This document shows positions 10,837 through 31,672 of a DNA stretch of 64,000 nucleotides, one piece after another; the first letter of the stretch is position 1; each line of letters opens with the position of its first letter. Under the pieces are notes generated by a model. The model saw nothing but the letters and a program-made list of their open reading frames with translations, did not search any database and had not been told where the DNA came from. Both the position numbers and the translations under genes were made by a program. The DNA comes from Streptomyces asoensis (lineage in GTDB: Bacteria; Actinomycetota; Actinomycetes; Streptomycetales; Streptomycetaceae), in contig NZ_CP049838.1 in assembly GCF_013085465.1 (NCBI RefSeq), positions 8,680,001-8,744,000 on the forward strand, in the 5' to 3' direction.

Positions 10837-10950
10837 GGTCATGAGCGTCAGCGACAAGCCCTGGCTAGCTGACCGGCAACCCTCGCTCCGCGGTGGGGTG
10901 CCCCAGGTGACGACCGGACCGACGTTTCGGTAATGACGTATCGGTAAGCG
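10837..10950 (+). promoter_or_regulatory. SAM riboswitch (SAM-IV/S-box-like)
   Basis: The core 10837-10915 runs GGTCATGAGCGTCAGCGACA, then AGCCCTGGCTAGCTGACCGG, CAACCCT, CGCGGTGGGGTGCCCC and GGTGACGACC. The order and sequence of the conserved blocks match SAM-binding riboswitches, closest in my memory to the actinobacterial SAM-IV class. P1 pairs GGTCA with TGACGACC. Downstream bases to about 10950 may form the extra SAM-IV pseudoknot, and a GGCCCT/AGGGGCC hairpin follows near 10955-10970. It should repress the importer genes when SAM is high. Confidence 0.85.
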
Positions 10951-10978
10951 CGAGGGCCCTCCAGGGGCCGGAACAGTG

Positions 10979-20222: not shown

Positions 20223-21335
20223 CTACCGCAGGGTGCTCGCCGTGGCTCGCCCGCGCTCGGCGCCGACGGCATGGGCCACGACGTCCAGCAGGCGTCCGCC
20301 GTCGTCGCCGGCGAACCACTCGGCGTGCCCCACGCAGTACTCGTACGCCAGCCGGGTGTTCTCCGCGGACCGCGTGACGCCGTGGAAGTAGCCCAGCTCG
20401 GACAGCGCGAACTCGGCGTGCACCAGGGGCAGCAGTGCGGGGAGCGCGGCCGATTCGGCGGGGGTGAGCGGTCGTACGGACTGGTAGCCGTCGACGAGCG
20501 CGGTCACGTCCTCCTCCCTCACCGGACAGCCGGGCCGGAGCCACTGCACGGCGTTGCGTTCGATCGCCGTGGCCAGGTCGTGCACGGCCGTCGTGCGGTC
20601 GCTCATGCCGAAGTCCAGGACGGTGCGGACCTGTCCGTCGCCGCCCCACAGGAGATTGGAGGCGTGCCAGTCGTTGTGGGTCCACAGGGGTTCCAGGCCG
20701 GACAGCCGGGGTGCGAGCCGTTCGTGCAGCGGCAGCAGCACCCGCCGGACGTCCTCGCGCCACGGGAACCGCCGGATCCCCGAGGCCAGTTGGGGCCGCT
20801 CGGCCAGGAACCGTTCCAGTGCGTCCCAGGGATCCTGCGCGGCGAACACCGTGAACGAGGCGACGAGCGGCTGCACCCGACGCCGTGGCGCGTCGAACCC
20901 CCGTGCCGCCAGATGCAGTCGGGCCAGCGCCGCGCCCGCCGCCGTGGCGTGCGCGGAGGAGTGGAAGGGCGACCAGGACAGCGCGTCCCGGTACAGGTCC
21001 TCCCCGGCGCCGGTCGAATGCACCTCGTACGTCCACGTGCCGCGTGCCTCCGTGTGCAGCACCTCCACCACCGGCGCGCCGTGCTCCCGCAGGTGCCGCA
21101 GGAAGGCGTGCTCCTCGGCCAGCCCTTCCGGGGAGCGCACGCCGACGTGGTGCCGCTTCACGAACAGCCGCCGGCCGTCCCTCTCGACGACGGCCGCCGC
21201 GGACAGCGGGCGCGGGCTGCGCCACACCACCCGGGCGCCCGCCCCGACGACGTCCGTCACCTCGTCGTCGGTCAGCGGCGCCCAGTCGGGCTCGACCGGG
21301 TCGGTGCCGAGACCGTGGGCCAGATGTGAACTCAC
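20223..21335 (-). CDS. Aminoglycoside/choline/thiamine-kinase-fold phosphotransferase
   Basis: The 370-residue APH-fold protein shows the ATP-contact Lys in LFVKRHHVG, the catalytic-loop motif HNDWHASNLLW (Brenner-type HxDxxxxN) and the metal-binding DFGMSD. The GTG at 21335 overlaps the stop of the ABC ATPase, so it belongs to that operon as its last gene. Because the operon starts with a TPP-like RNA and encodes a THI5-type importer, a thiamine or pyrimidine kinase role is plausible; antibiotic phosphorylation is less likely here. The substrate is unproven. Confidence 0.8.
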   Translation of the reverse strand: MSSHLAHGLGTDPVEPDWAPLTDDEVTDVVGAGARVVWRSPRPLSAAAVVERDGRRLFVKRHHVGVRSPEGLAEEHAFLRHLREHGAPVVEVLHTEARGTWTYEVHSTGAGEDLYRDALSWSPFHSSAHATAAGAALARLHLAARGFDAPRRRVQPLVASFTVFAAQDPWDALERFLAERPQLASGIRRFPWREDVRRVLLPLHERLAPRLSGLEPLWTHNDWHASNLLWGGDGQVRTVLDFGMSDRTTAVHDLATAIERNAVQWLRPGCPVREEDVTALVDGYQSVRPLTPAESAALPALLPLVHAEFALSELGYFHGVTRSAENTRLAYEYCVGHAEWFAGDDGGRLLDVVAHAVGAERGRATASTLR

Positions 21336-22093
21336 GGAGTCTTCACCGCCGTTGTGCCGCGCAGCGCTTCCAGGACCCGGCGCTCGGTGGCCGCGAACTC
21401 GGGCGCCGTGAAGTCCTCCGCCCCGCGCGGGCGGGCCAGCGGCACCTCCACGCGTGCGACGACGCCGGCCGGGCGCGGCGACAGGACGTGCACGGTGTCC
21501 GCGAGCAGCACCGCCTCGCGGATGTCGTGGGTGACCAGCAGCACCGTCCACCGGTGGCGTTGCCACATCTGCGCCAGCCACAGCTGCATCTCGGTGCGGG
21601 TCAGCGAGTCCAGCGCCCCGAACGGCTCGTCCAGCAGCAGCACCGGACGCTCCAGGACGACCGTGCGCAGCAGCGCCGCCCGCTGCCGCATGCCGCCGCT
21701 GAGCTGCGAGGGATACGCCTTCTGGAAGCCGTCGAGCCCGAAGTCGGCGAACAGCGCGTCGGCCCGCGCCCGGGCCTCCTTCTTGCGCACGCCCTGCGCC
21801 TCCAGGCCGAGCGCGGTGTTGTCCAGCACGGTCCGCCACGGGAACAGCAGGTCCTTCTGCGGCATGTAGGCGACCTTGCCGGATTCCACCCCGGCCGGTT
21901 CGCCCTCCACCAGGACCCGGCCGGTCGTCGGCCGGTCGAGCCCCGAGACGAGGTTGAACAGCGTGCTCTTGCCGCTGCCGCTCGGCCCGATCACGGCCGC
22001 GAACTCGCCCGGCCCCACCGACAGTCGGAGACCGCGCAGGACCTCCAGCGCGCCGAAGGACTTACCCACCTCCTCGATACGCAGACTGCTCAT
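21332..22093 (-). CDS. ABC importer ATPase, nitrate/sulfonate/thiamine-precursor type
   Basis: The 253-residue ATPase has Walker A GPSGSGKST, signature LSGGMRQRAA, Walker B VLLLDEPFGALDSLTR and the switch VTHDIREA, all typical of SsuB/TauB/ThiZ-like subunits. The ATG at 22093 follows GGAGGAGAGGTC and overlaps the permease stop (ATGA). It powers the permease encoded upstream. Confidence 0.9.
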   Translation of the reverse strand: MSSLRIEEVGKSFGALEVLRGLRLSVGPGEFAAVIGPSGSGKSTLFNLVSGLDRPTTGRVLVEGEPAGVESGKVAYMPQKDLLFPWRTVLDNTALGLEAQGVRKKEARARADALFADFGLDGFQKAYPSQLSGGMRQRAALLRTVVLERPVLLLDEPFGALDSLTRTEMQLWLAQMWQRHRWTVLLVTHDIREAVLLADTVHVLSPRPAGVVARVEVPLARPRGAEDFTAPEFAATERRVLEALRGTTAVKTP

Positions 22094-22860
22094 GACCTCT
22101 CCTCCCGCTGCGCCCGCTCCCACGGCAGTACCAGCCGCTGAAGCAGGCAGGTCGCCCCGAACAGCGCGATGCTCAGCGCCGCGGTCACTCCCACCGCCGC
22201 GAACACCAGGTCCGTCCGGAACGCGCTCTTCTGGGCCTGCATATAGATCCCGAGCCCGGCCTCCGCGCCCGCGTACTCCGCGAACACCGCGCCGACGACG
22301 GCGTAGGTGATGCTCACCCGCAGCCCGGCGAAGAAGTACGGCATCGCGCTCGGCACCCGCACCAGCCGGAACGTCCGCAGCCGGCCCGCGCCCAGCGAGC
22401 GCAGCAGCCGCATCGCCTCACGATCGGTCGCGGCGAACCCGGCGGCCAGGTTGGCGGCCAGCGGGAAGAACGTCGTCAGCGTCACCACCAGCATCTTCGG
22501 CAGCAGCCCGAAACCGAACCAGATGATGAGCAGGGGAGCCACGGCGACGATCGGGACGGTCTGCGAGGCGACCAGGAGCGGGTACAGCCCCCGGCGGGCC
22601 GCCGACGAGAAGTCCAGGAGCACGGCGACCAGCCAGGCCGCAGCGAAGGACAGCGCGAAGCCGAGCAGGGTCTCCTGGAGCGTGGGGACGGTCTGTGCCC
22701 ACAGGTCCGTGCGGTTGGCCCAGCCCTGCTCCAGCACCCGCGCCGGCGACGGCAGCATCGTCGGATCGACGCCCGCGCCGGTGACGTACAGCTGCCAGCC
22801 GCCGACCACGACGGCCAGCACCAGCAATGGCGGCCACAACGACCGCAGCACCGACCTCAC
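22090..22860 (-). CDS. ABC importer permease, nitrate/sulfonate/thiamine-precursor type
   Basis: The 256-residue permease has about six hydrophobic helices and the SsuC/ThiX-like segments VPIVAVAPLLIIWFGFG and LLRSLGAGRLRTFRLVRVPS (EAA-like loop). The GTG start overlaps the stop of the binding-protein gene. Together with that lipoprotein and the ATPase it should form a full importer. Confidence 0.88.
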   Translation of the reverse strand: MRSVLRSLWPPLLVLAVVVGGWQLYVTGAGVDPTMLPSPARVLEQGWANRTDLWAQTVPTLQETLLGFALSFAAAWLVAVLLDFSSAARRGLYPLLVASQTVPIVAVAPLLIIWFGFGLLPKMLVVTLTTFFPLAANLAAGFAATDREAMRLLRSLGAGRLRTFRLVRVPSAMPYFFAGLRVSITYAVVGAVFAEYAGAEAGLGIYMQAQKSAFRTDLVFAAVGVTAALSIALFGATCLLQRLVLPWERAQREERS

Positions 22861-23909
22861 TTGGCGCTCCCGGCGTCCTTGGAGTCCGGCAGATAGGCGT
22901 TGGTGAAGAACGACGCGGCGTCCGGGGCCTCGGTCAGCCTGCTGCCGTTCGCGTCGCTCAGCAGCCCCGCCCGGTACTCGAAGTCGGCGAAGGCCTGCCA
23001 GCGCTCCTCGCTCTGGGTGCCGATCGTGCCGTCGGCGGCCCGGTAGTACTCCTTGGCGAGCAACTCCTCGCTCTTGCGCACGAGTTCGGTGTTGGTGAGC
23101 ACGCTCTTGTTGGCGTCGATGAGGAGATCCGCGGCCTGGTCGGGGTGGTCGGCCGCGTACCGGTACCCCTTGTCCACGGCGGCCAGGAACTTCCTCGCGA
23201 CCTCCGGGTTCTTCTTCAGGAACCGGTCGGAGGACGCGAGGAGCGTCGAGTAGATGGCCGGGAAGCCGTAGTCGGACAGCTGGAAGTTCTTCAGCGGCTT
23301 GCCGCTCAGCTCCGCCTCCAGCCCCTCCCAGGTGGGCATCGGCATCGCGAAGTCCGCCTTGCCCGCGTAGAGCGCCGCGTACGCCGAGGTGCTGAGGGTG
23401 ACCTGCTTGAAGTCACCCTTGCCGCCCGCGTTGCGGATCACCTTCTGAAGGAGCGGCTTCTCGTAGGGCGCCCCGAAACCGGCGTACGTCTCGCCGTCCA
23501 GGTCCTTGGGGGACGCGATGTCCGTACGGCCGGCGCGCACCGCGATGGTGACGTTCGTCTTCTGGGTGACCGCGTAGACGGAGGTGATGTCCTGTCCGGC
23601 GGCGCGCGCCGTGGTGACGCCCTCCTGGTAGGAGATGCCGAAGTCGGCCTTGTGGCCGGCGATCAGCGTCTCGGGCGCGGTCGAACCGTAGGGCACGATC
23701 TTCAGATCGATGCCGGCGGCCTTGAACCAGCCCCTCTGCTGGGCGACGTAGATGCCGGTGTGGTTGGTGTTCGGGGTCCAGTCCAGGGCGAGGGTGACGG
23801 TCGTGGTGCCGTCCTTCGCGGTGGCGTCGGCCGAGGGGTCCGCCGAGCAGCCGGTCGCGGCGAGGACGGCCGACGCGGCTATGACGGACAGGACGGTACG
23901 GCGGTGCAT
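22857..23909 (-). CDS. THI5/NMT1-like ABC substrate-binding lipoprotein
   Basis: The start at 23909 follows GAAGGAACCCTC. The signal peptide ends in a lipobox with Cys21 (LAATGC). The mature domain begins LALDWTPNTNHTGIYVAQQR (residues 40-59), the hallmark of ThiY-type binders of thiamine pyrimidine precursors, though sulfonate and riboflavin binders are related. Total 350 aa. Leader ORF 4 lies directly upstream. Best guess: uptake of a formylamino- or hydroxymethyl-pyrimidine. Confidence 0.85.
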   Translation of the reverse strand: MHRRTVLSVIAASAVLAATGCSADPSADATAKDGTTTVTLALDWTPNTNHTGIYVAQQRGWFKAAGIDLKIVPYGSTAPETLIAGHKADFGISYQEGVTTARAAGQDITSVYAVTQKTNVTIAVRAGRTDIASPKDLDGETYAGFGAPYEKPLLQKVIRNAGGKGDFKQVTLSTSAYAALYAGKADFAMPMPTWEGLEAELSGKPLKNFQLSDYGFPAIYSTLLASSDRFLKKNPEVARKFLAAVDKGYRYAADHPDQAADLLIDANKSVLTNTELVRKSEELLAKEYYRAADGTIGTQSEERWQAFADFEYRAGLLSDANGSRLTEAPDAASFFTNAYLPDSKDAGSAK

Positions 23910-23955: not shown

Positions 23956-24048
23956 TCACGCCCGGCGACACAGCGCGCTGTCCACCCGCTTGAAGTCGAC
24001 GGCCAGCCGCCGGGTGAGCCCCCGCGCCTGGCAGGACAGGACACTCAT
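23956..24048 (-). CDS. Sulfur-type leader peptide 4, inside the THI5-like operon
   Basis: A 30-codon ORF starts with an ATG overlapping the stop of the upstream THI5-like gene (ATGA) and ends LTRRLAVDFKRVDSALCRRA. The VD-F-x-RV-x-SALC core matches leaders 1-3. It lies 46 bp before the lipoprotein gene, so it may tune the importer separately from the first gene of the operon. Translation is likely coupled to the upstream gene. Confidence 0.65.
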   Translation of the reverse strand: MSVLSCQARGLTRRLAVDFKRVDSALCRRA

Positions 24049-24968
24049 GCGGTCACGGCCGGCAGCAGCGCGTTGGTGAAGGAGCGGTCCCAGTCCCGGT
24101 CGTGCGCGAGGGCGCCGTGCTCCGCGAGCCAGTGCGCGTACGGGCCCGTGCGCGCCGGGTCGATCACTCCCCAACGGCCTTGCGGGTCGGTCCAGGTGGG
24201 TGCGATCAGGGCGAGGGAACGGGCTATCAGCGGGCGCGGGAAGTAGGGGATGACCCCTTCGAGCAGCTCCAGCGTCCGCTCGGTGTCCTGCGCGGCGGCC
24301 GCGTAGCCCCGGGCCGTGACGGCGAGGAAGTCCCGTACGAGAGACGGCTGTTCGGCGAGCAGGCGCTCGTTCGTGCCCAGCAGGTAGCTGTGGTAGAGGG
24401 GTGCGCCGATCTCGTCGACCGGCCAGGTCACGCGCCGCTCCTCGGGGAGGTCGCCGCGCAGCGCGTCCCAGGACCAGTAGGTGCCGAAGGTGGCGTCGGC
24501 CTCGCCCGCCTCGATGTCGTCGACGGTCAGCTCGCGCGTGCCCGCGTCGATCGTGACGACCGCGTCCGGGTCGCCGCCGTCGGCCGCCACCAGATGGCGG
24601 ACCATGGCCAGGCCGCGCGGGGTCGGGTTCAGGGCGAGGCGACGGCCCGCGAGCTCACGGGGGCGGGTGATCCCGGTGGACGCGGTGGTCTGGATCGCCT
24701 CCAGACCCCGGTGGTTGACGGCGGCCACGGCGATCAGCGGCTGGCCGTGCGCGGCGCGCCGGGCCAGCAGCCGGTTGGGCGGGAAGACACCGAAGTCCAC
24801 CTCGCCGCGTGCCAGGTACTCCAGGGTGTCACCGCGTCCCGGGTCCTGGACCACGAGTTCCACGTCCAGTCCGGCCTCCGCGAACCAGCGGCGGGCACGG
24901 GCCACATAGAAGCCGGAGGAATTGGGCCAGGGATGGAAATAGTCGAGCATGACCCGGATGTGCGGCAT
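24045..24968 (-). CDS. THI5/NMT1-like protein without signal peptide
   Basis: The 307-residue protein has the THI5-like opening IRVMLDYFHPWPNSSGFYVA, then WFAEAGLDVELVVQ and GEVDFGVFPPNRLLARR. Unlike the lipoprotein encoded two ORFs downstream, it has no signal peptide or lipobox, so it should stay in the cytoplasm or be bound indirectly. I see no CCCFC motif of the yeast Thi5 enzymes. It may be a cytosolic pyrimidine-binding or enzymatic relative. It is the first full gene after the TPP-like RNA and the cysteine-rich leader. Confidence 0.8.
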   Translation of the reverse strand: MPHIRVMLDYFHPWPNSSGFYVARARRWFAEAGLDVELVVQDPGRGDTLEYLARGEVDFGVFPPNRLLARRAAHGQPLIAVAAVNHRGLEAIQTTASTGITRPRELAGRRLALNPTPRGLAMVRHLVAADGGDPDAVVTIDAGTRELTVDDIEAGEADATFGTYWSWDALRGDLPEERRVTWPVDEIGAPLYHSYLLGTNERLLAEQPSLVRDFLAVTARGYAAAAQDTERTLELLEGVIPYFPRPLIARSLALIAPTWTDPQGRWGVIDPARTGPYAHWLAEHGALAHDRDWDRSFTNALLPAVTA

Positions 24969-25049
24969 GAGGGAACTCCGAAGGCGGCGCGCGAGAACGC
25001 GGAAATGGCGGAGGGGGAGAAAAGGTGTGGCGTGCGGGGCGGTGCGCGG

Positions 25050-25160
25050 TCAGACGGACCGGCGACAGCGGCACCCGCGACAGTTGCGCGTGCGACAACA
25101 ACAGGAGCTGCCCGCCGGGGTGGAGACCACCGGAGGCTTCGGCTCTACTGCTGCGGACAC
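25050..25160 (-). CDS. Cysteine-rich leader ORF
   Basis: A 36-codon ORF with GTG start 5 nt after GGAG contains six Cys codons in its second half (CCCRTRNCRGCRC), then RRSV and stop, 81 bp before the THI5-like gene. Poly-Cys short ORFs are known as cysteine-responsive attenuators in mycobacteria. This one is absent from ordinary ORF lists because it is short. Its ribosome site overlaps the 3' arm of the TPP-like RNA, so two signals may meet here. Confidence 0.7.
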   Translation of the reverse strand: MSAAVEPKPPVVSTPAGSSCCCRTRNCRGCRCRRSV

Positions 25161-25164
25161 GTGA

Positions 25165-25281
25165 ACTCCTACGCGGGGCGCCAGGGCGCGATTCGTGCGG
25201 TCGGCGTCCCCATGGGGACCGCGTTCGACGAACGGATCCCAGACGCCCTCTCAGCCCGTCCGGGGAGGGGCTCCCGCGTAG
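25165..25281 (-). promoter_or_regulatory. TPP-riboswitch-like RNA with atypical sensor arm
   Basis: Read on the minus strand from 25281: the P1 5' arm CTACGCGGG pairs perfectly with CCCGCGTAG at 25177-25169. GAGCCC...GGGCTGAGAGG contains the CUGAGA pyrimidine-sensor loop, GGCGTC pairs with GACGCC, and CGACCGCACGAA resembles the usual joining segment. The expected CCUGAUC...AUGCC pyrophosphate-sensor arm is missing and a short GCGC-CCUG-GCGC hairpin takes its place. The 3' arm overlaps AGGAG of the cysteine-rich leader ORF, implying translational control. Confidence 0.65.
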
Positions 25282-25394
25282 ATGGCCGAAACCATAACGG
25301 CAGCCGACGGTCCTTGCGCAACCTTGATCCGAAATATGAGACGGCCATGATCAGTGGGTAAGACGCCCAGCTCACGGGCGTACCATCGGCCGCC

Positions 25395-26309
25395 ATGACC
25401 ACCTCCCCGCTGCCCGGCCCCCTCGTCGACGACACCTGGCTGGCCGCCCGGCTCGACGATCCCCGGCTGGTCGTCCTCGACGCCACGGTGCTGCTTCCCT
25501 CACCCCGGCACGACGGTGACCACCGCAGTGCGAGCGGCCGTGAGGGATGGCTCCGACGACACCTCCCCGGGTCCCGGCACGCCGACCTGACCGGGGACTT
25601 CTCCGACCGCGACGCGCCCTGCCACTTCACCGTGCCGGGCCCGCAGGCGCTGGCTCGCGCGCTCGCCCGGGTCGGCGTGGGGGAGGGGAGCGCGGTGGTC
25701 GCGTACGACACCGGGGGCGGGATCTGGGCGGCCCGGCTGTGGTGGATGCTGCGGGCGATCTCCGTGCCGGTGGCCGTGCTCGACGGGGGCCTCGCGGCCT
25801 GGGAGTCGGCGGGACGGCCGCTCGCGTCCGGCGACGACCCGGCGCCGGTGCCCGAGGTGACCCCCGTCGCGCCCGTCCCGCGTCCCGAACTGTGGACAGA
25901 TGTCCACGAAGTGGGGGCCATCAGCCGGGGTGAGCAGCCCGGCACACTGGTCTGCGCGCTGCCCGCGGCCGGCTTCGACGGGTCCGTGCCCACCCGGTAC
26001 AGCCGACGCGGACACATCCCCGGCAGCCGCAGCCTTCCCGGTCGCGAACTCCTGGACGCCGAAGGGCGCGTGCTGCCCGCGGCCGAGCTCGCCGCGCGCG
26101 TCGGTGCCGGTCTCGACGCCGCCGACACGCCGGTCGTCCTGTACTGCGGCGGCGGTGTCTCGGCCGCCGGGGTCGCCCTCGCCCTCACCCTGCTCGGGCG
26201 CGAGGACGTGTCCCTCTACGACGGTTCCCTGGAGGAGTGGTCGAAGGATCCGGCACGACCACTGGAACTGGGCGGCGCGGCCCGGCCCCGACCGGAACAG
26301 GGCGACTGA
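25395..26309 (+). CDS. Thiosulfate/3-mercaptopyruvate sulfurtransferase (double rhodanese)
   Basis: The 304-residue protein has two rhodanese domains. The N-terminal one (LVVLDATVLLP to AVLDGGLAAWESAG) lacks the catalytic Cys, as usual. The C-terminal one has the active loop LYCGGGVSAAG with Cys251. It moves sulfane sulfur from thiosulfate or 3-mercaptopyruvate to an acceptor. It is divergent from the THI5-like operon; the shared gap holds the TPP-like RNA. A role in supplying sulfur for thiamine thiazole or cysteine metabolism is plausible. Confidence 0.88.
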   Translation: MTTSPLPGPLVDDTWLAARLDDPRLVVLDATVLLPSPRHDGDHRSASGREGWLRRHLPGSRHADLTGDFSDRDAPCHFTVPGPQALARALARVGVGEGSAVVAYDTGGGIWAARLWWMLRAISVPVAVLDGGLAAWESAGRPLASGDDPAPVPEVTPVAPVPRPELWTDVHEVGAISRGEQPGTLVCALPAAGFDGSVPTRYSRRGHIPGSRSLPGRELLDAEGRVLPAAELAARVGAGLDAADTPVVLYCGGGVSAAGVALALTLLGREDVSLYDGSLEEWSKDPARPLELGGAARPRPEQGD

Positions 26310-29308: not shown

Positions 29309-31672
29309 GTGAGTATGCCGACTCCAGTTGAGGTGAAGACGTTCGAACCGCAATACAGGACCCTGCGACTGCCGTGGCCGTTCACGGGCCGGGACGAGGA
29401 ACTGGAACTCGTCCGCCGCTCCTTGGCCGTGGGCCGGCCCGGCATGGTGATCACCGGACCGGCGGGCTGCGGCCGCACCCGGCTGGCCATGGAGGCGATC
29501 CGCGGCACCGACTGTGCCCGGGTGGCCGGCACCCCCGGGACCCGCGACCTGCCGTTCGCCGCCTTCGCCCACCTGCTCCCCGAGGGCGTCACCCTGCACA
29601 AGGCGGTCCAACTCCTTTCCGGCGTGCGGCAATTGCTGGTCGACGACGCGCATCTGCTGGACGACTCCTCCGCTGCCCTGCTCCACCAGCTGGCCGTCCA
29701 GGGCCGCACCCGGCTGCTGGTCCTCGTCACGGACGGAGCACGCCCGCCCGGCGCGGTCGCCCGCCTGTGGACCGGCGAACTGCTGCCCCGCCTCGCCCTG
29801 GAGCCGCTGCCCCGCGAGGAGACCACCCCACTCCTCGACGCCGGCGCCGGTGGCCCCCTGGAGCCCCTCGCCGTCAACCGCCTGCACCGTCTGTGCGGCG
29901 GCGACCTGCGCCTCCTGCGCGACCTGCTGGACGCGCTGCGCGAGCAGAGCCTGCTGACCAGGGACGCGGACACCGACGAGCTGAAGTGGCGCGGCCGCGT
30001 CCCGGTGACCCCGGCCCTGCGGGAACGCGCCGCCGCCGTGCTCGCCCGCAGCTGCCCCGACGAACGCGAGATCCTCGACCGGCTCGCCTTCGCCGAACCG
30101 CTGGCGCCGGCGGCGGACACGCTGGACCTGCGGATCCTCGAACGCCTGGAGGCGGACGGCCTCCTCGACGTCGACGACGACACGACCGTCCGCCTGGCCC
30201 ACCCCCTGCACGGCCCGGTCCTGCGCGCCGAGGCCGGCCGGCTGCGCGCGAGGCGGCTCACCGGCCGTCGACGGTCCACCGCGTCCGCCCTCGACGCCGA
30301 GGCGGCCGAGCTGACCCGCCGTATCGAGCGGGCCGACGTCCGTACGACGCCCACGCCCGTGGGGGAGTGGCTCGTCGCGGAGGGGGAACCGGTACCGGCG
30401 CGGTACGCCGCCGTCCGCGCGCGGTTCTCACGGCTGCGGGGAGAACTGCGCGAGGCGGCGGCCTGGGCGAGGGAGGGCCTGGCCGCCGCCCCGCAGGACC
30501 GCGCCTGCCGCACGGAACTCGCCCTGGCCGCCGCCCAGTCGGGCGAGACGGGCGCACCGATCGACCTCCTCGCCGAACACCCCGCCACAGCCGCCTGGCC
30601 ACCGGCCGCCCGCGGAGACCTCGACACGGCCCTGAAAACACTCGAAGAGACCGACACCGACACCCGGACCGGCACCGACACGGGCACCGGGACCGGCACC
30701 GACACGGGCACCGGGACCGGCAGCGACACGGGCGTCGGGACTGGGACCGGCAGCGACACGGGCGTCGGGACTGGGACCGGCACCGGGACCGGCACGGGCA
30801 CTGGGCCTGGGGCTGGGACCGGCACGGGCACTGGGCCTGGGGCTGGGACCGGCACGGGTACGGGCACTGGGACCGGGACGGGCACCAGCACCGGCACCGG
30901 GACCGGGACGGGCACCAGCACCGGGACGGGCACCGGCACCGGGACCGGGACGGGGACGGGCACCGGCACGGGGACGGGTACCGGGACCGGGACGGGTACC
31001 GGGACCGGGACGGGTACCGGCACCGGGACGGGTACCGGCACCGGGACCGGCACCGGCACCAGCACCGGTATCCGCGACGCCCACGCGACACGCGACCTGC
31101 CCGCAGGGGGCCACACACGCCTCCACGACCCCGACGCGGCCCACGACTTCCGCGCGGCTCGCGACCCCCACGGGCCACACGACCCTTACACCGCCTACGA
31201 CGCCGTACGCCTCGGCGCTCCCCAGCACGCCGTTCGGCTGCTTCCCCCCGACGGTTCCCTCGCCCGGCACGCCCGGGCGCTGGCCCGGGGTGACGGACCC
31301 GCGCTGGACCTGGTGGCCGCCGAGCTGGAGGAGCGCGGTTTCCTTCTCTTCGCGGCCGAGGCGTACGCGCAGGCGGTACGCGTCCACCGGGACGCCGGCG
31401 CGGCCCGTACCGCCCGTACGCGTGCCGTCGCCCTGGCCCGGCGGTGCCAGGGAGCCTGTACCCCGGCCCTGTCCGGTCTGGTCCTGGGCGAACTCACCGC
31501 CCGCCAACGGCAGATCGTCACCCTCGCCGCGGCCGGCCTCAGCAACCGGCAGATCGCCGAACGCCTCACCCTGTCCGTCCGGACCGTCGGCAACCACCTC
31601 TACGGCGCCTACACCCGGCTCGGTGCCGGCGACCGCGGCGCCCTTCCATGGCTGGTGCAGCAGCCGGCCTGA
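29309..31672 (+). CDS. LuxR-family ATPase regulator with long Thr-Gly repeat
   Basis: The N-terminal part is an AAA/STAND-like ATPase with Walker [10 protein letters not shown] (about residues 50-58) and Walker B-like [10 protein letters not shown]. The C-terminus is a LuxR helix-turn-helix ([20 protein letters not shown], then [18 protein letters not shown]). Between them lie about 140 residues (448-587) dominated by alternating Thr and Gly, with occasional Ser, Asp, Val, Pro and Ala. Frame is kept across the repeat, so the gene is intact. GTG 29309 and ATG 29315 are both possible starts; no clear ribosome site is seen. Confidence 0.82.
30650..31070 (+). repeat. GC-rich tandem repeat encoding a Thr-Gly tract
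   Basis: About 420 bp of 6-bp units (mostly ACCGGC, ACCGGG, ACGGGC) organised into longer duplicated blocks of about 30 bp, for example the GGGCCTGGGGCTGGGACC block present twice near 30807-30860. All units are multiples of 3, so copy-number change would alter the length of the protein linker without a frameshift. Confidence 0.9.

Follow-up and report, generated by a model that had tools for sequence, protein, structure and literature searches.

Upstream of an NMT1/THI5-type importer operon in Streptomyces asoensis lies a leader RNA that our comparative analysis identifies as a real, conserved variant of the TPP riboswitch class, outside every Rfam family. The element is 117 nt long and is read from the minus strand at 25281-25165 of the window, by which we mean the whole 64,000-nucleotide stretch of contig NZ_CP049838.1 that was analyzed. 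Judged from its letters and those of its relatives, it is a riboswitch-like leader that descends from an actinobacterial TPP riboswitch and has no P4/P5 arm, and it is likely to work as riboswitches do. The explanation that we favor for the whole, at a probability of about 0.48, is a TPP-derived strand-exchange leader that would sense an unphosphorylated thiamine pyrimidine and thereby gate a Cys leader ORF.

Relationship to the TPP riboswitch class

The Rfam TPP model gave no match to the element at E<=1 in 2.5 kb or at E<=10 in 146 nt, and an Rfam scan of the element region (146 nt) found no match to a thiamine-type family. The element was likewise absent from the matches (E<=10) of a TPP search of its own genome, which yielded three further TPP switches along with a partial match of 26 nt. 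The three ordinary switches score 54.1, 52 and 38.8 bits (E from 4.4e-8 to 2.7e-4), all under the gathering score of 54.3. The switch at 38.8 bits, which lies before thiC (L003, near C1:5015667-5015757), has 86 nt in P3a where the model has 1.

Because Rfam offered no TPP match to the variant, three models were made, R1 from the variant, R2 from the ordinary pyrimidine half and R3 from the ordinary pyrophosphate arm. R1 scores the window's element (25165..25281, minus strand), whose own sequence is in the model, at 131.1 bits, and 24 distinct elements were collected. R2 was built from the halves of 20 ordinary TPP switches of Streptomyces that RF00059 had detected; the 33 loci read for it comprised 21 distinct halves, 5 duplicates and 7 off-pattern sequences, and L090, which has a long P3a, was then excluded. 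In the window, R2 matches 25281-25198 at 43.5 bits (E=8e-10) and its sole other match has E=0.69, so the likeness to the TPP half is not due to chance. Tests on individual loci, which were picked for diversity (16 for R2 and 21 for R3), gave R2 matches in all 14 variant loci tested (E from 3.2e-10 to 1.3e-7) and nothing at E<=1 in L060 and L061, two loci without the element; weak matches away from elements occurred in L042 (E=0.011 and 0.8), L059 (E=0.026) and L058 (0.51). The relationship also holds in reverse: all 46 of the weaker R1 matches that were made into loci are ordinary TPP switches (45 by pattern and L133 by eye), a count that leaves many further R1 matches near 30 bits outside it.

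Measured against the features of RF00059, the variant thus has the pyrimidine-sensor half, P2-P3(-P3a) with its CUGAGA block, as recognized by R2, and by sequence it has thiamine-related genes downstream in the form of a ThiY/THI5-type ABC operon. By these models, the lack of a pyrophosphate arm and of an Rfam score sets it apart from TPP switches, and the pyrimidine half places it among them. The check with covariance models that the initial annotation had proposed gave no match to the RF00059 TPP model; the half model R2 matched and the arm model R3 did not. The letters that the annotation had read on the minus strand are all in place, with CUACGCGGG (25281-25273) pairing with CCCGCGUAG (25177-25169) and both GGGCUGAGAGG and GACCG present. 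Its description of the pyrimidine block as that of Streptomyces TPP switches is sound for the half as a whole, by R2, but not for the 'GAA' of CGACCGnnnGAA, which is the trait of a subclade, GACCGCACGAA being found in 5 of 24 distinct elements.

The missing pyrophosphate arm and its replacement

According to the excerpted text of PMC6414600, P2/P3 of the TPP switch bind the pyrimidine ring and P4/P5 bind the pyrophosphate. The absence of the pyrophosphate arm had been noted from the sequence at the outset, and R3, trained on 12 ordinary arms, seven of them at loci detected with Rfam and five at loci detected with R1, bears this out. It detects eight of eight ordinary switches, six of which share arm letters with the training set, and none of 13 variant elements; P4-P5-L5 is therefore a part of the RF00059 architecture that R3 does not find in the variant. 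In the window, R3 finds nothing at E<=10 between 23000 and 27500, and weak matches elsewhere are confined to L045 (E=0.058) and L130 (0.7). No normal TPP arm is seen in the 24 distinct elements gathered by text pattern, nor in 23 loci anchored on the first binding-protein gene of the operon (SBP1) that were examined without the pattern; one of these 23 (L041) has the letters ACCTG after CTGAGAG, minus the rest of the arm.

In place of the arm, the short GCGC-CCUG-GCGC hairpin that had been proposed is present at 25189-25178 on the minus strand (P4*, 25178..25189). In the alignment of 21 sequences, its pairing covaries above shuffles, with three of four pairs changed on both sides and 72.6% of cells paired, and it is retained in most relatives, which answers the call for a covariation check of the replaced arm. 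When 19 distinct arms were folded, 14 adopted one register, two were shifted and three were weak, and nine of the 19 reached 0.05 or less against shuffles; P4* is weak in elements of the L015/L058/L098 type, which form one subclade. The window's own P4* is no more stable than random orders of its letters (0.245 of 200 shuffles as low), so that support for the hairpin comes from the relatives. Neither loop nor length is conserved among these, so P4* probably serves to close the structure and is not a new arm for sensing. Among the outcomes that had been named as counting against the element, an unconserved replacement is contradicted by the hairpin kept in most relatives, and a normal arm in close relatives by its absence from the 24 distinct elements. 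At L059:2677-2844, the replaced arm of a variant element has grown to a long hairpin of ~60 nt.

Two mutually exclusive helices

The alignment of 21 sequences, from which L059 was excluded for its long insert, has 74 invariant columns that span P1*, P3, CUGAGAGGG, most of P3a and GACCGCA. The P1* 5' strand, CUACGCGGG (25273..25281, minus strand), is invariant in 21 of 21 and also supplies, at 25277-25274, the P2 5' strand; the 3' strand, CCCGCGUAG (25169..25177, minus strand), includes the GCGUAG of the TPP P4 3' side, and together they form nine invariant pairs. Between them on the minus strand are the P3 stem-loop (GCCC/GGGC, 25254..25271, from the alignment), which has one extra pair in L056; the CUGAGA block of the TPP pyrimidine half (25249..25254), aligned by R2 and invariant in 21 of 21; P3a with its 3' CAUGG bulge (25203..25247), near-invariant save its tip; and GACCGC (25197..25202), which comprises the junction and the P2 3' strand and is invariant although it would be unpaired if P1* forms. 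The junction retained here is a k-junction, a type described in PMC10573300 as not binding ligand directly, which counts against the mechanism proposed below. Two other readings of these conserved parts were dropped: the conservation of P3a as a new feature, because this region also reads GGCGnCUGGG in ordinary TPP switches from other actinobacteria, and the P3 loop (CCUACC/CUCC) as an anti-ribosome site, a by-eye reading that is absent in L056. The letters TCCTGTTGTTGY have one further site in the strain's own genome, by eye antisense to a repeat-rich ORF.

The nine-base-pair helix had been taken for the P1 of the TPP switch, which it is not, because GCGUAGG belongs to the P4 3' side in the structure line of TPP switches and the pairing rewires the P2 and P4 strands. 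Rather, the alignments indicate that P1* is a new, variant-specific 9-bp helix that closes the element. In each of the 24 distinct elements the pairing zips up over 10 nt, one pair being G-U, as compared to 3 bp (7 switches), 4 bp (31), 5 bp (1) or 6 bp (1) for the same zip in 40 distinct ordinary TPP switches; the sets used for folds, uORFs, zips and the comparison of distinct P4* arms were gathered by a text pattern that holds the P1* and P3 letters, and the invariance of those letters within them is therefore partly by construction. In all 24 elements the P2 strands (GCGG/CCGC) are also complementary, though P1* excludes P2, so that the variant has, by sequence, two mutually exclusive conserved helices.

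Constrained folds favor P1* by 7.4-13.3 kcal/mol in 24 of 24 elements. Unconstrained folds of ten elements gave P1* pair probabilities anywhere from 0 (L012) to about 1 (L009 and L056) and values near 0 for P2 in all ten, an inconsistency from which we conclude that the energy model demands neither state. Covariation is no guide to either helix because neither ever varies. The P2 3' strand, however, is invariant despite being unpaired in the P1* fold, from which it seems that both folds are selected, and the dependence of P1* on a TPP-type P2 strand suggests a strand-exchange switch. In the order of synthesis, P2-P3-P3a is complete by nucleotide 85 and the P1* 3' strand comprises nucleotides 105-113.

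The leader ORF and its ribosome-binding site

An AGGAG ribosome-binding site (25166..25170, minus strand), invariant in 21 of 21 sequences, has its A and first G inside P1*. It had been said that the RNA overlaps a ribosome site, and an overlap with GGAG at 25169-25166 does exist. The site serves a small Cys-rich uORF (25160-25050) that was missed in the initial annotation, and not the importer gene, which starts at 24968. This predicted uORF (25050..25160, minus strand) has 36 codons, a GTG start and an SCCC motif written TGT TGT TGT. All 30 distinct uORFs are open, their aligned length differences are whole codons, and 29 contain Ser-Cys-Cys, L092 having SCRC instead. Cys codons are TGT 97 to TGC 17 in the uORFs versus 4 to 21 in ten window ORFs, and CTCCTGT is found in 31 of 31 distinct downstream stretches. 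The conserved TCC TGT TGT of the uORF includes a CUCCU that is complementary to the upstream AGGAG. No selection at the protein level was detected in the uORF, whose synonymous fraction of 0.299 (shuffled mean 0.307) is equalled or exceeded in 98 of 200 shuffles, and what is constrained may therefore be the RNA or the codons and not the peptide.

The CUAC/GUAG strands are still able to pair beside P2, and were drawn so in two of three constrained folds inspected, which means that the gain in exposure of the ribosome site may be small. A hairpin that would hide the SBP1 ribosome site was considered and dropped; it appears in several folds, but compared with simple shuffles it has z-scores anywhere between -3.0 and +1.8.

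Farther upstream on the minus strand, a -35-like TTGCGC (25316..25321) and, 18 nt from it, a -10-like TTATGG (25292..25297) belong to a loose promoter-like pattern found in 30 of 30 distinct upstream stretches. The pair ends 10 nt before the element, and the transcript may thus start right at the element. Over 24950-25400, a stricter consensus sigma-70 scan found no promoter and a terminator scan no terminator-like site.

The importer operon and its probable cargo

The element had been placed before a THI5/NMT1-type importer, and the protein matches agree. Downstream of the uORF on the minus strand, in order, are SBP1 (24045..24968; PF09084, 1.1e-52; PDB 3ix1, 3.7e-17), a ThiY-like second NMT1/THI5-type binding protein, SBP2 (22857..23909; PF09084, 3.2e-64; PDB 4nmy, 2e-47, and 3ix1, 6.3e-29), an ABC permease (22090..22860; PF00528), an ABC ATPase (21332..22123; PF00005) and an APH-fold kinase (20223..21185; PF01636), with a divergent rhodanese (sulfurtransferase) on the plus strand (25395..26309; PF00581). 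The kinase and the rhodanese are also assigned by synteny. The gene order recurs in most of the relatives retrieved, within the DNA available for each; exceptions at 40% identity are L041, without SBP2, L058, with a short SBP2 piece, L054 and L060, without the rhodanese, and L061, which has only rhodanese and SBP1. SBP1 and its leader are kept in both L041, where the permease match is shortened, and L058. In L061 (2290-3000), by eye, an apparent P-loop kinase ORF lies between rhodanese and SBP1 and there is no RNA.

The PDB relatives of SBP2 are 4nmy, the formylaminopyrimidine-binding protein 3ix1 and then THI5 and THI13; SBP1 has the same set, more weakly. A sulfonate-SBP (SsuA-family) model, TIGR01728, also matches SBP1 and SBP2 below its cut-off, so the cargo of the importer is not certain. 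In the strain's own genome, thiO, the gene of a thiamine ABC binding protein (TIGR01254) and thiC each follow one of the ordinary TPP switches, and all three score above NCBIfam cut-offs. Synthesis of the pyrimidine by the strain itself is thus to be expected, which would make the importer a salvage route.

Distribution and conservation

The least biased statement of conservation is the SBP1-anchored one: in a species-level collection of contigs, 23 of 25 loci with the SBP1 protein carry the element in the same altered form, including one in Streptacidiphilus jeojiense. The SBP1 genes without it are those of S. phaeofaciens (L060) and a metagenome bin (L061), neither of which has CTGAGAG. Full-length relatives were found by DNA (whole-query matches) in 10 of 392 genomes of the genus, the own genome included. 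With R1, in whole-genome searches whose stricter filters lose weak matches, scores >100 bits were obtained in 13 of 391 genomes of the order (own included), one of which, G590, is of another genus of the family, and scores >50 bits in the own genome only of 394 genomes of the class. At E<=1e-30, SBP1 is found in 1 of 388 genomes of the class, which is again the own genome, so no diverged leader was found there that would break the invariance of P1*. The 23 of 25 loci show that the element is more than a decayed copy, a possibility that the initial annotation had raised.

Proposed mechanism and alternative explanations

In the mechanism that we propose, P2-P3-P3a would fold first, ahead of synthesis of the P1* 3' strand, and the folded half would bind an unphosphorylated thiamine pyrimidine, HMP, formylaminopyrimidine (FAMP) or a relative, which is also the probable cargo of the importer downstream. 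A pyrimidine is our leading guess for the ligand. Held in the CUGAGA pocket, it would keep P2 in place against P1*; in the ligand-free RNA, P1* would invade and pair the A and first G of AGGAG. The switch would in this way gate translation of a leader ORF of 20-36 codons with Ser-Cys-Cys(-Cys), and passage of the ribosome through that ORF, possibly in a cysteine-dependent manner, would set expression of the importer operon, whether as an ON or as an OFF switch. The fuller evolutionary version, in which a TPP switch was turned into a sensor of unphosphorylated pyrimidine by arm loss and a strand-exchange helix and the Cys leader adds cysteine as a second input, is one to which we hold tentatively, the odds being against it as a whole.

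The uORF and P1* could also be explained by a TPP skeleton that no longer senses a metabolite, in which P1* is a fixed fold that sets the start of the leader ORF and regulation is by ribosome pausing at the Cys codons (cysteine attenuation). The greater stability of P1* in every constrained fold is consistent with such a scaffold, as are the Ser-Cys-Cys of 29 of 30 uORFs, the CTCCTGT of 31 of 31 stretches, the excess of TGT (97 to 17 versus 4 to 21 in window ORFs), the divergent rhodanese and the precedent of a Cys-rich uORF before mycobacterial cysA2, reported in the excerpted text of PMC4633059. A fixed scaffold, however, would not need GACCGCA and CUGAGA, which are mostly unpaired in the P1* fold and nonetheless invariant in 21 of 21 sequences, and the uORF gave no sign of selection at the protein level; we regard this explanation as less likely than not, if deserving of attention. 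The adjoining rhodanese, the Cys codons and the sub-cut-off SsuA-family matches would also suit a riboswitch of the same architecture whose ligand is something else than a thiamine pyrimidine, such as a compound of sulfur or a different planar molecule. This we consider improbable, because the P2-P3 and CUGAGA letters match those in ordinary TPP switches and because those PDB relatives whose names give a function either bind pyrimidine or take part in its synthesis.

It is also quite improbable that TPP itself (or thiamine phosphate) is still sensed, some other element having replaced P4/P5. The operon is of the thiamine type and the C and G in contact with the beta-phosphate (within GCGUAGG; contacts as given in the excerpted text of PMC6414600) remain in the sequence by alignment, but they sit in P1*, and the P4 5' strand, P5 and L5 are not found by R3. 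Decay into a TPP switch without function would account for the failure of the Rfam TPP model to score the element; the same altered form at 23 of 25 SBP1 loci, including Streptacidiphilus, the 74 columns invariant over 21 sequences and the compensatory changes in P4* make it scarcely credible, and we rejected decay as an explanation on the strength of conservation across species.

Comparison with known systems

The TPP class is the most widespread of the riboswitch classes, and we know of no natural variant of it with changed specificity. None appeared in the literature searched, which consisted of titles and abstract openings and to which a 2017 paper on variant riboswitch classes did not belong. 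With the TPP riboswitch (THI element, RF00059) the variant shares P2-P3-P3a, the CUGAGA block, GACCG, the GCGUAGG letters, a ribosome site at the 3' edge and thiamine-related genes; it differs in having a short variable hairpin instead of the P4/P5/L5 arm (ACCUG...GGGUAAUGCC), a new 9-bp P1* that shares a P2 strand and a uORF after it, and in being missed by the Rfam model. The HMP-PP riboswitch (thiS motif) resembles it in sensing a thiamine precursor, the role proposed here, but in the description given in the excerpted text of PMC6478431, on which this comparison is based, that class is a pseudoknot aptamer inside a terminator, whereas no terminator-like site was found here in 24950-25400. 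Actinobacterial riboswitches beside or on a small uORF are described in PMC11260477 (the mycobacterial metE/ppe2 B12 switches) and PMC12810186 (Mbox-rv1805A); their aptamers differ from this one, and the uORF here is Cys-rich. The mycobacterial Cys-rich uORFs, so far as the excerpt of PMC4633059 describes them, likewise have their Cys codons clustered toward the end of a short ORF and lie near sulfurtransferase genes. They are upstream of cysA2, however, whereas the uORF here comes after a TPP-like RNA and the rhodanese gene is divergent.

If our reading is true, the element would represent a natural change of ligand within the TPP class, and pyrimidine import would answer to both pyrimidine and cysteine. 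A conserved half-aptamer would allow direct tests of whether the pyrimidine half can work alone, of how riboswitch classes change ligand through domain loss, and of whether a riboswitch can act through a Cys-rich leader ORF.

Elsewhere in the window, a long ORF on the plus strand (29309-31672) has a Gly-Thr-rich repeat (GTGTGT...) in its middle, and a SAM-IV riboswitch lies at 10837-10956 on the plus strand (96.1 bits), no other Rfam family reaching its gathering score in the window.
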